Below are positions 10,820-14,835 of a DNA stretch of 24,033 nt, in pieces. The notes below the pieces were generated by a model. It made no database searches, was not told the DNA's origin, and saw only the letters and a list, made by a program, of their open reading frames with translations. The translations under genes were made by a program, and so were the position numbers. The stretch covers positions 1 to 24,033 of IMG/VR virus record IMGVR_UViG_3300020190_000341. The stretch is one strand, 5' to 3'. How positions within the stretch are numbered: position 1 is the first letter of the stretch; every line of letters starts with the position of its first letter. Source of the DNA: a virus.

Positions 10820-11905
10820 TTAGTCGTTTAGTTTTGACTGCGTCGAATATAAATCATTTACAAACCCCCAATTAACTACCTTCCAAAAGTTTGAAACGTA
10901 TTTATCTCTTTGGTTTTTATACTTTAAGTAATAAGCATGTTCCCAAACATCCAACCCCAAAAGAGGATATCCTCTAACTTCTTGATTGTCCATTAACGGG
11001 TTATCTTGATTTGCAGTAGTGACAATCTTCAATCTATTTGTCTTTGTCAATATTAACCAAACCCATCCTGAACCAAATCTTGATTTTGCCTCTTCTTCAA
11101 ACTTTTCTTTGAATTTTTCAAAAGAACCAAAAGTTTTTTCGATTTTAGATTTTATTGGGTCTTCAAGATTTTGTTTTTTTGGTGAAAGCATTTTCCAAAA
11201 TAAGGCATGATTAAACGCTCCGCCACCATTATTTCTAACTACCGTATTGAATTTTGATATATCTGAAACTATTTGTTCTAAATCTAAATCTTTACCTTTA
11301 ACTTTTTCTAATTCCTTATTTAGCTTATCAACATAACCTTTGTAATGCTTATTGTAATGAGTATTCATAGTCTCACTATCAATAAAAACCTCTAAAGAGT
11401 TATATTCATAAGGTAATTTATCTATACTGATTTTTTTAATTTCATTAATTAAGGTGATTTTTTCAGATGAGTCAATTTCTAACATAGATTCAATCTCACT
11501 TATTTTTTTTGAAAATGATTTATAGATTGATTTTTCCATGTCCTTGTTATTTTTTTCAAATTTTTTAATTTCTTGTGATGATTGTGAACTGGCTTCATCT
11601 TCATTTTTTCCACCAATGTCCTTACCTTTTTTTCTTTTTAAAATAGTTCTTTGGTATTCGTGCGACCATTCGTGAGCTAATGTTCTCATTATGTCACGAT
11701 TTAATCTATCTTTTACTAAAATTTTAAGTTTGTTTTTGTCTGTACGTGAACCTGTGGTCATAGTACCCGTTCTTTTTGATTGAAATGAAATATCAATATC
11801 ATCCTCTAATGGATAATTCTTTTTAAGTTGTAAAATAAAATCGTTGATTAATTTCTTATCTTCTTTTGTTGGGTCTATTCCATCATATTTAATATTAACT
11901 TCCAT
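10820..11905 (-). CDS. Fusion protein: zincin-like metallopeptidase domain plus Fe/Mn superoxide dismutase
   Basis: 361 residues in one uninterrupted frame. Residues 1-115 contain an HExxH site, TLAHEWSHEYQ (H78, E79, H82). NEDEA follows ~20 residues later; E102 fits the ExxA third ligand of gluzincins. A charged helical linker (about 106-160) joins it to a full-length superoxide dismutase (163-355). That domain starts LPYEYNSLE and has all four metal ligands: H183 (THYNKHY), H233 (FNHALFW), D319 and H323 (LDVWEHAYYLKY). The gateway residues H187 and Y191 are present. Gly at 229 and Gln at 300 (TANQDNP) match the Mn-type rather than the Fe-type. Superoxide to peroxide chemistry is expected; the peptidase substrate is unknown. 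It lies between the helicase and neck genes. No signal peptide is seen. Confidence 0.88.
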   Translation of the reverse strand: MEVNIKYDGIDPTKEDKKLINDFILQLKKNYPLEDDIDISFQSKRTGTMTTGSRTDKNKLKILVKDRLNRDIMRTLAHEWSHEYQRTILKRKKGKDIGGKNEDEASSQSSQEIKKFEKNNKDMEKSIYKSFSKKISEIESMLEIDSSEKITLINEIKKISIDKLPYEYNSLEVFIDSETMNTHYNKHYKGYVDKLNKELEKVKGKDLDLEQIVSDISKFNTVVRNNGGGAFNHALFWKMLSPKKQNLEDPIKSKIEKTFGSFEKFKEKFEEEAKSRFGSGWVWLILTKTNRLKIVTTANQDNPLMDNQEVRGYPLLGLDVWEHAYYLKYKNQRDKYVSNFWKVVNWGFVNDLYSTQSKLND

Positions 11906-11917: not shown

Positions 11918-14785
11918 TCATCTCCTATTGGAAATCATATTTAACATTTCTTCAATTGTTGATGCGTCATCCATCATATCATCACCCATTACGGTTGATA
12001 TGATTTTCTTTTTTCTACTAAGGATGTCGTATATAGCACCTTCAATTGTGTTTTCAAATAGTGGATAATAAACAGAAGTTGAATTTTTTTGACCTATTCT
12101 ATGGGACCTGTCTTCGGCTTGTGAATGTTCTGCAGGTACAAATGATAAATCATTCATTATTACAGCTTCAGCTGAAGTTAAAGTAATACCAACACCAGCA
12201 GCCCTTAAGTTTCCAACAAATACATTTATTTTATCATTTGTTTGAAATTGGTCAACAGCATACTGACGTGTTGCGTTACTACAACTACCATCAAGATAAA
12301 CTGATTGTTTTCCAAAATGTTGGTGTATTTCTTGTAGTGTGTCTGTAAAATTTGTGAATATGATAACTTTTTTTCCTTGTTCAATTATGTTTTCAGCCAA
12401 CTCAATAGTATTTTTAATTTTTTCTTGGGCAATTACTTTTCTAACTTTCATTAGTTTTGAAAACTGAATTGTTAGGGATGAAGACTCTTCAGGTCTTGTA
12501 TCATACCAATCAAAATATTCACCCATTAATTCTTCGTAATCTTTTGACTTTAGTCTTAAATAAACAGGAGTAATTATTTTTTCAGGTAAATCTAATACCT
12601 CTTCTTTAAGTCTTCTAAGAATATGGGTTTGTGTTCTTTCTCTTAACTCTTCTAAATTTGATGCCCCCGTTACGTTCCAAACTTTTCTTTTACCAACACT
12701 AAACTGAAAACCATTGCAATATCTTCTTGCGTATGCCATCCAATTTGCGGCAACAGGACTATCAACCAAATTTAGTAAGTTATAATAATTCATTGGTCTT
12801 GAGGTCATTGGGGTTCCTGATAATAACCAAACCCTTTCTAATTTACTAGCAATATCATTTGCAATTTTCGTTCTTTGTGCTTGTGGATTAGATATCATGT
12901 GAGCTTCGTCCATAATCACCAAGTCAAAGTTAATTTTCATAATCTCTGATTTTTCCTTGTTTTTGATGTCGTGGAAGTTTTTTAATATATCGTAATTAAC
13001 AATTACAAAATCGTGTTCATTAGAAAACTTTTTACCTTCAGAAATATAAACACTTCTGTTTGAATAATTTTCTATTTCTCTTTGCCAATTTATTTTTAAT
13101 GATGCGGGACAAACAATTAATATTTTTTTCGCACCTGTTTCAAGTGTGGCTATTATGGTAGAAGTTGTATTATGTGTAACAATACAATGTTCTGTCACAT
13201 ATAGTTTATCAGGAGAGTCAACTGAAATACAAACGCTATCCTCAAACCCAACCTTTTCGATGTTTTTAATAAATCTACCAGTTGGGTATTTTGTGGGTTC
13301 AACATACCTTTCGGATTTTCGTTTTAATCTAAATGGATTCATACCTTTTGGTAGTTTGATATTAACCCTATAAGATAATTGACCTTTCTTTTTTTCACCA
13401 TTATGAGTGTATGTTGGAATACGAGTTTGAACTCTTGCAATACCACCTAACGTTTGAACCACCTCAACAACGTCATCACAAAGTTGTTTTGAAATGGTTG
13501 AAAATTCAGTTCCTAAAAACTTTCCACTACTATTAAACATGCAATGACCGTCAGTGTCCATTAATCCTTGTAGTATTGAAAGTCTGTTATCAACAGATGA
13601 ATATTTGTATATTTCTGGGATAAACTTATTGTGGGAACGGGTGTGTTCAATACCCAAATCATATAAAGACAAATTAACATTAATATATCCATTTCTTTTA
13701 TTACCCTGTGATTTGTTTTCTTTTAAATTCAGTGAAGTAAATAAATTATCATAATCGTCTTTATGAACTGAAAATCTGATATTTTTTTTGTTAAACGAAC
13801 CATCACCTAAGGCAAGTCCTAACAAATATGGGTCAATTGGAAGATTTTCGTTACGTTCGAATTGAATTGGTTTTACAATAGGAATTTGCCATTTATTATT
13901 TCCGTTTGGTGATTTGAAGTAAGTTTCAATTTCATATTCCTTATCTTTATTATAACCAATACCTTTAACTTTAATTTTACCCCCCTCAAACATTTGTTTT
14001 GTTGACAGAACTAAAGATTTTTTTCGTCTTTCGTTTTTTGTATTTTTACCATAATTGGGTGATGAAACTGACCACAAATGTTCGTCACCTGCCAAAATAG
14101 AAAATCCATCATTAAATGTAATTTTATATGTTTCCCTAACTCCCTGTGGAAATACACCAACTACATTATAGGGTTTACCATCACTACCAATAATTTTATC
14201 ACCTACTTTTAAATCTCCAATTTTTTTTCTACCAAATGGGGTAAAAACCCTATTATTAATGGGTTCAAATTTACCCAAACCCATATCGTCTGCCAAAATA
14301 AACTTTTTATTTCTAACTAATTTTTCAATAGCCTCTTTTTGATGAGCCATTGGAGCTCTGTGACTATACTTTTCATAATCAATTGAAACATTTTTTACTT
14401 CGTTGTCTTTTAATATTGCTGATTTTGGCATCCAAAAGTCGTGTAAAGTTTCGCCACTGAAAATTTTGCCCCATATATGATAAGATTTATCTTTTTCAAC
14501 TAATAACTTTTCAACATATATTTCACTAGGTTCTTTTGTATACATTTTGTCTTCCATCAGTTTTTTTCCAAAATATGTGTCTAATTTGACCCATTTTTTT
14601 GCAACCTTAGGGTTTGTATTCTTATAGTTTATAATGTATTCTGCTTGTGCTCTCGTCGGGGTGAATGTTTTGCTATTATCTTTTTTATGTTTTAAATTTA
14701 GGATATAGTTATTTGACCCTTGATATTCATCTAATAAAAAAAGGGCTTTTGACTCTGGTGTTTTAGACACAAAATCTTCATTCAT
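11918..14785 (-). CDS. SNF2-family helicase/ATPase with an in-frame intein in the P-loop
   Basis: 955 residues from the ATG at 14785; the frame stays open to an ATG at 14821, but the extra 12 residues are hydrophobic and less likely. After removing the intein (173-539) the host protein is 588 residues. It has a phage-type N-terminal region, the Q-like MAHQKEAI, P-loop DDMGLGK|TTS split by the intein, DEAH box VIMDEAH (626-629), motif III LLSGTP, motif V GVGITLTSAEAV and motif VI QAEDRSHRIGQ. This is the full SNF2/SMARCAL1-like set, so an ATP-driven translocase that remodels DNA forks or displaces proteins is expected. Intein removal is needed to rebuild the P-loop. It is divergent from the 14839 gene, and the SOD-fusion gene follows 12 bases after its stop. 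Confidence 0.93.
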   Translation of the reverse strand: MNEDFVSKTPESKALFLLDEYQGSNNYILNLKHKKDNSKTFTPTRAQAEYIINYKNTNPKVAKKWVKLDTYFGKKLMEDKMYTKEPSEIYVEKLLVEKDKSYHIWGKIFSGETLHDFWMPKSAILKDNEVKNVSIDYEKYSHRAPMAHQKEAIEKLVRNKKFILADDMGLGKFEPINNRVFTPFGRKKIGDLKVGDKIIGSDGKPYNVVGVFPQGVRETYKITFNDGFSILAGDEHLWSVSSPNYGKNTKNERRKKSLVLSTKQMFEGGKIKVKGIGYNKDKEYEIETYFKSPNGNNKWQIPIVKPIQFERNENLPIDPYLLGLALGDGSFNKKNIRFSVHKDDYDNLFTSLNLKENKSQGNKRNGYINVNLSLYDLGIEHTRSHNKFIPEIYKYSSVDNRLSILQGLMDTDGHCMFNSSGKFLGTEFSTISKQLCDDVVEVVQTLGGIARVQTRIPTYTHNGEKKKGQLSYRVNIKLPKGMNPFRLKRKSERYVEPTKYPTGRFIKNIEKVGFEDSVCISVDSPDKLYVTEHCIVTHNTTSTIIATLETGAKKILIVCPASLKINWQREIENYSNRSVYISEGKKFSNEHDFVIVNYDILKNFHDIKNKEKSEIMKINFDLVIMDEAHMISNPQAQRTKIANDIASKLERVWLLSGTPMTSRPMNYYNLLNLVDSPVAANWMAYARRYCNGFQFSVGKRKVWNVTGASNLEELRERTQTHILRRLKEEVLDLPEKIITPVYLRLKSKDYEELMGEYFDWYDTRPEESSSLTIQFSKLMKVRKVIAQEKIKNTIELAENIIEQGKKVIIFTNFTDTLQEIHQHFGKQSVYLDGSCSNATRQYAVDQFQTNDKINVFVGNLRAAGVGITLTSAEAVIMNDLSFVPAEHSQAEDRSHRIGQKNSTSVYYPLFENTIEGAIYDILSRKKKIISTVMGDDMMDDASTIEEMLNMISNRR
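13169..14269 (-). mobile_element. Intein with LAGLIDADG homing endonuclease, class 3 features
   Basis: 367 residues between GLGK and TTST of the helicase. It begins FEPINNRVFTPFG (block A), followed by IGDLKVGD. Block B reads ILAGDEHLWSV, with H64 and W66. The two LAGLIDADG motifs are LLGLALGDGS (about 149-158) and LQGLMDTDGH (about 233-242). Block F reads SVCISVDSPDKLYV, with C347 where class 1 inteins usually have Asp. Block G ends VTHN, and the +1 residue is Thr. Residue 1 is Phe, not Cys/Ser/Ala. Trp two after the block-B His, Cys in block F and Thr before the His-Asn form the WCT triad that defines class 3 inteins, which start splicing from the block-F Cys. It is therefore probably active. 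Confidence 0.92.
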
Positions 14786-14827
14786 ATAATATAATATAAG
14801 TAATAATAAAGAAAAAATCAATTAAAC

Positions 14828-14835
14828 TATTTATA
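14828..14835 (+). promoter_or_regulatory. TATTTATA motif directly upstream of the 14839 gene
   Basis: CTATTTATAAGTATG: only 3 bases separate the 8-mer from the ATG, and there is no Shine-Dalgarno sequence. If it is a -10-like element, the message is leaderless. It sits in the 53-base divergent gap between the helicase and this gene. Confidence 0.3.

Follow-up and report, generated by a model that had tools for sequence, protein, structure and literature searches.

The helicase gene and its insert

The window, by which we mean the whole stretch of DNA analyzed here, is the 24-kb IMG/VR virus record IMGVR_UViG_3300020190_000341 (positions 1–24,033). Its minus strand carries a single open frame at 11918–14785 that encodes an intein-containing SNF2-family helicase precursor. 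The mechanical ORF begins at a TTG codon at 14821; the ATG at 14785 is the likely start codon. Pfam assigned SNF2-rel_dom (E = 1.1e-27; residues 160–761, a match stretched by the insert) and Helicase_C (E = 3e-16) to the host protein, in which the SNF2-family motifs DDMGLGK-TT, MDEAH and QAEDRSHRIGQ were also present, and LAGLIDADG_3 (E = 3.4e-7) to the insert.

The insert occupies 13169–14269 (minus strand) and splits the Walker A motif between Lys and Thr. It comprises 367 codons with zero stops, from TTT (Phe1, 14269–14267) to AAT (Asn367, 13171–13169), and its product begins with FEPINNRVFTP and ends with SVCISVDSPDKLYVTEHCIVTHN. The N-extein of 172 aa (14270–14785, minus strand) ends in ILADDMGLGK, i.e., Walker A through its Lys, and the C-extein of 416 aa plus stop (11918–13168, minus strand) starts with TTSTIIA and contains the remaining SNF2 motor and Helicase_C. 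The flanks join as DDMGLGK-TTST, indicating that Walker A is intact once the insert is removed; the expected spliced helicase has 588 aa (172 + 416). An earlier note, made from the DNA letters, had described a class 3 intein in the P-loop of a phage SNF2 helicase at this location. Its coordinates were exact to the base, and a script verified both terminal codons, the residues it had named (Phe1, Trp66, Cys347, Thr365 and the terminal His-Asn) and His64.

The residues relevant to splicing all lie on the minus strand. The first residue, Phe1 (14267–14269), is non-nucleophilic. Block B contains His64 at B:10 (14078–14080) and Trp66 at B:12 (14072–14074), the W of the WCT triad. Cys347 at F:4 of block F (13229–13231) is the predicted initiating nucleophile, and block G provides Thr365 at G:5 (13175–13177), the T of the triad, followed by the penultimate His366 and the cyclizing Asn367 (13169–13174). 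The C-extein +1 Thr (13166–13168), present in every complete relative, would serve as the second nucleophile and is also the Walker A Thr. The insert also contains both LAGLIDADG motifs, which the earlier note had called intact: LLGLALGDG with the catalytic Asp156 (13799–13825, minus strand) and LQGLMDTDG with the catalytic Asp240 (13547–13573, minus strand). Gly155, Asp156 and Gly157 of motif 1 and residues 233–241 of motif 2 were invariant among relatives, including both acidic residues of the LAGLIDADG endonuclease.

Tail sheath and family B DNA polymerase genes were found near the helicase by Pfam. Directly downstream, at 10820–11905 (minus strand), lies a gene whose product combines an Fe/Mn superoxide dismutase (SOD) domain with an N-terminal part containing HEWSHE, a metallopeptidase-like HExxH motif. 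The T4 late promoter core TATAAATA occurs at 14828–14835 (minus strand), just upstream of the helicase, and in ten other places. This count of 11 in the window compares with 4.6 expected, and as many were obtained in 1 of 100 shuffles.

Empty sites, residue conservation and mobility

We scanned IMG/VR with the C-extein and examined the best 80 loci. In 75 of them, DDMGLGK|TT was uninterrupted at the exact predicted junction, and the other 5 carried an intein. The boundaries of the insert are thus established far beyond chance. A second scan with the intein yielded 80 loci, and the whole intein was readable in 74; these 74 contigs carried an intein of 367–377 aa, always at the same GK|T. Residues were compared for the window plus these 74 inteins (75 in total, with 53 distinct sequences). 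One contig (L002/L082) matches the window exactly over this region and is not independent of it.

His64, Trp66, Cys347, Thr365, His366 and Asn367 were invariant across the 75 inteins. Approximately a quarter of all positions were invariant; invariance at any single position is therefore weak evidence alone, and it is the contrast with residue 1 that counts. This residue was Phe in 27 inteins, Gly in 16, Cys in 12, Ala in 12, Leu in 5 and Met in 3; it ranked 26th of 367 positions in variability (entropy over the 53 distinct sequences) and, on a tree computed with the first four residues left out, required a minimum of 14 changes. Such drift at residue 1 would not be tolerable in a class 1 intein.

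Relative to the inteins, the host sequences had different histories. The window and the relative L003 shared an intein 93% identical (dS 0.44), whereas the C-extein was 76% and the N-extein 60% identical, with dS 1.6. The nearest empty-site relative, L083, had a C-extein 94% identical to that of the window, and the C-exteins of L026 and L050 were 99% identical while their inteins were 75% identical. Together with the mostly empty sites, this mismatch indicates that the intein is mobile and moves independently of its host. The incongruence fits homing, in which the endonuclease would presumably provide the cleavage. Against L003, dN/dS was 0.061/0.476 for the Hint (splicing) part and 0.022/0.461 for the endonuclease; both ratios are far below 1, indicating that the splicing and endonuclease regions are under purifying selection.

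An apparently extreme intein/extein discordance in L048 (C-extein approximately 30% identical) was an artefact of a second intein in the DEAH box and was dropped. The L048 helicase holds two inteins, one of class 3 in Walker A and one of class 1 type inserted after the Asp-Glu of the DEAH box, the latter starting with CFTYDTK and ending with NHNYFANNILVSN|C. The C-extein of L049 is near-identical to that of L048.

Class assignment and alternative explanations

Class 3 inteins are defined by Trp at B:12, Cys at F:4 and Thr at G:5, with no nucleophile required at residue 1 (PMC3196547; PMC5222942; PMC5050341). The family studied here showed each triad residue in 75 of 75 inteins and Phe, Gly, Ala, Leu, Met or Cys at residue 1, and the intein in the window has the block B His, the terminal His-Asn and a nucleophilic +1 Thr. 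Class 1 inteins require Cys, Ser or Thr at residue 1, where the window has Phe. Every published class 2 intein is a KlbA orthologue and carries Ala1, with Asp at F:4, Ser at G:6 and Cys at +1 (PMC4031507); the corresponding residues here are Phe, Cys, His and Thr. By every sequence criterion testable here, assignment of the insert to class 3 is supported.

A wider search provided further comparison. Using tblastn with the intein, we found 780 phage records at E ≤0.01, of which 728 covered at least 80% of the intein, all at less than 60% identity; full-length relatives in phages and bacteria were 26–39% identical. Their hosts include SNF2 and other helicases, terminases, DnaB and an RNA polymerase subunit. 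We read junctions and catalytic positions for a sample of relatives from phages, plasmids and bacteria, and in most the triad was accompanied by Ala, Leu, Met, Gly, Arg or Thr as the first residue. Among 40 inspected non-class-1 relatives outside the near family, 38 kept Cys at F:4, with W and T or with one or two substitutions, whereas 11 bacterial class 1 controls had Cys1, Asp or Asn at F:4 and in no case Trp at B:12. The phage inteins of JA-1 TerL, LfeInf and phiCbK TerL (L170, L183 and L179, respectively) lack Cys1 and keep Cys at F:4 with an otherwise deviant triad: Asn at B:12 in JA-1 TerL, Phe at B:12 with Ser at G:5 in LfeInf, and Pro1, Phe and Val at G:5 in phiCbK TerL.

On a tree of the splicing blocks with the signature columns included, the window belonged to a 43-row group (41 triad rows and two deviants; support 99/88) separate from all class 1 controls. 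When the four signature columns were removed, the splicing blocks were too weak to resolve a class 3 clade, and a grouping of the window family with class 1 was not rejected by the AU test (p = 0.55). In the full-length alignment without these columns, 33 triad rows including the window formed a clade (SH-aLRT 96); forcing the window family together with class 1 cost 27 log units and was also not rejected (AU p = 0.19). Phylogeny thus supports class 3 and is not decisive alone.

An AlphaFold2 model of the intein (44 sequences; pLDDT 88.7) resembled PI-SceI, a Hint + LAGLIDADG intein, most closely over its full length (Z 25.9 over 330 residues). Among the VIA-align matches to structures consisting of a splicing domain only, the top three were class 3 DnaB inteins (6bs8, Z 20.2 and rmsd 1.4; 6rix, 19.9; 6riy, 19.8), ahead of fungal Prp8 inteins (19.2) and the class 1 inteins gp41-1 (18.1) and NpuDnaE (17.5). 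The lead over the Prp8 inteins is within approximately 1 Z unit; therefore, the modeled structure is supportive of class 3 and not decisive.

We considered whether the insert may be a class 1 intein in decay, which lost its Cys1 recently and is now non-splicing or only cleaving. In favor of this are Phe1 and the AU tests without signature columns, which permit a joint grouping with class 1. However, all 75 inteins have Cys rather than Asp at F:4 with W and T fixed, residue 1 changed at least 14 times while the rest was never lost, and dN/dS is far below 1; in addition, if the insert stayed in place, Walker A would be interrupted in a helicase that is conserved throughout the relatives. The earlier note had itself raised a class 1 lineage with a recent loss of Cys1, and no such lineage was seen: the Cys1 forms are nested among non-Cys1 forms that keep the triad. 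We consider this explanation very improbable. Still less probable, to the point of being hardly credible, is a class 2-like route in which the +1 residue attacks the N-terminal splice junction directly and Cys347 is non-catalytic. It would account for a first residue without a nucleophile next to a +1 Thr, whereas the known class 2 residues at F:4, G:6 and +1 all differ from those found here and the W and T specific to class 3 are fixed.

A further proposal accepts class 3 and adds a condition, namely that redox gating of Cys347 delays splicing and thereby helicase activity during infection. A class 3 DnaB intein of M. smegmatis is reported to act as an oxidative stress sensor (PMC6195587), and the gene with the Fe/Mn SOD domain lies directly downstream of the helicase. 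However, this neighbor was present at each of the 65 empty-site loci whose downstream DNA was long enough, compared with only 25 of 53 loci carrying an intein; we therefore rejected the SOD gene as an intein-linked redox feature and regard gating as unlikely, although less so than the two preceding explanations.

Predicted splicing, homing and Cys1 forms

We favor, with a probability of roughly 0.93, a class 3 intein that is active and mobile, contains a LAGLIDADG homing endonuclease and occupies Walker A of a phage SNF2 helicase. The class 3 reading of the earlier note thus withstood comparison with the invariant triad beside a drifting residue 1, the purifying selection, the structure and, with the above caveats, the phylogeny. 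Counted against it are the AU results and the +1 residue, Thr being less nucleophilic than Cys.

By analogy with studied class 3 inteins, from which we infer the splicing of this intein, the order of its chemical steps and the cutting by its endonuclease, Cys347, held by His64, Trp66 and Thr365, would attack the peptide bond between the extein Lys and Phe1 after translation, yielding a thioester branch at Cys347. The N-extein would then be transferred from this branch to the +1 Thr, cyclization of Asn367 would release the intein, and an acyl shift would join the exteins, leaving DDMGLGK-TTST. Since Walker A is intact only after excision, we propose that ATP binding may be limited to the spliced helicase. 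The endonuclease would cut the empty P-loop codons in the helicase gene of a co-infecting phage, and repair would copy the intein into the site.

Cys1 together with the complete WCT triad occurred in 12 of the 75 inteins, at two or more positions on the tree: a subclade (L008, L010–L015, L017, L020, L021 and L024) and the separate lineage L070. A 2011 paper reportedly broadened the class 3 definition to permit a nucleophile at residue 1. As a speculative suggestion with a small chance of being correct, these forms may be natural two-nucleophile inteins in which Cys1 and the block F Cys can each initiate splicing, or they may be reverting to class 1. If so, the Cys1 forms and the Phe, Gly, Ala, Leu and Met forms together would offer a naturally occurring series in which to test the way the class 3 mechanism came about. 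The natural variation agrees with mutagenesis in that residue 1 of class 3 is free and Cys at F:4 is fixed. With its size and depth, its empty-site alleles and its mixed residue 1, this family of full-length class 3 inteins lends itself to tests of where class 3 came from and to the selection of splicing reagents. Apart from this value, the element is an ordinary phage mobile element.

Comparison with known inteins

Class 3 inteins, including those in SNF2 helicases, are already known and are common in phages. The earlier note had called them uncommon, which does not agree with hundreds of phage records containing relatives; it had also considered an SNF2 host noteworthy, and phage SNF2 hosts with the triad are present in GenBank. 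Such a host is not new, given that the Deinococcus radiodurans Snf2 intein was already published as class 3: this intein and those of Bethlehem DnaB and Catera Gp206 splice efficiently and define the class (PMC3196547). Class 3 inteins have been proposed to be phage-derived and to have spread to helicase genes (PMC4031507).

In published descriptions (Brace et al. 2010, as cited in PMC3196547, PMC5222942 and PMC7664689), the Snf2 intein of D. radiodurans resembles the intein in the window in class and in its SNF2-family host. According to these accounts it splices via a block F branched intermediate, a step that the phage intein would share; unlike the phage intein, it resides in a bacterial host. 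A scan of genome contigs returned five relatives, D. radiodurans not being among these five. They include a bacterial SNF2 protein of 1414 aa from a Candidatus Eremiobacterota MAG (L174), whose class 3 intein likewise interrupts DDMGLGK|T.

The class 3 DnaB inteins (mycobacteriophage Bethlehem; M. smegmatis DnaBi1, 6bs8; M. chimaera DnaB1, 6rix) have the same WCT triad at B:12, F:4 and G:5 and, judging from our model, the same Hint fold (Z approximately 20, rmsd 1.4–1.9, 28–30% identity), with block B numbered one residue apart (His65/Trp67 versus His64/Trp66 here). They differ in having DnaB hosts, and the solved ones are mini-inteins without an endonuclease. The Salmonella phage SETP3 helicase intein sits at the same Walker A K|T position of an SNF2-related phage helicase; however, it has the class 1 signature, with Cys1 and neither Trp at B:12 nor Cys at F:4. 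The SNF2 inteins of PhiPA3 gp233, vB_BpoS-Papperlapapp, vB_EliS-L02 and the uncultured 484-kb phage LR756508 share the triad, the G-x-G-K|T site and LAGLIDADG with the intein in the window, and differ from it in having Ala, Met or Gly at residue 1 and only 33–37% identity.
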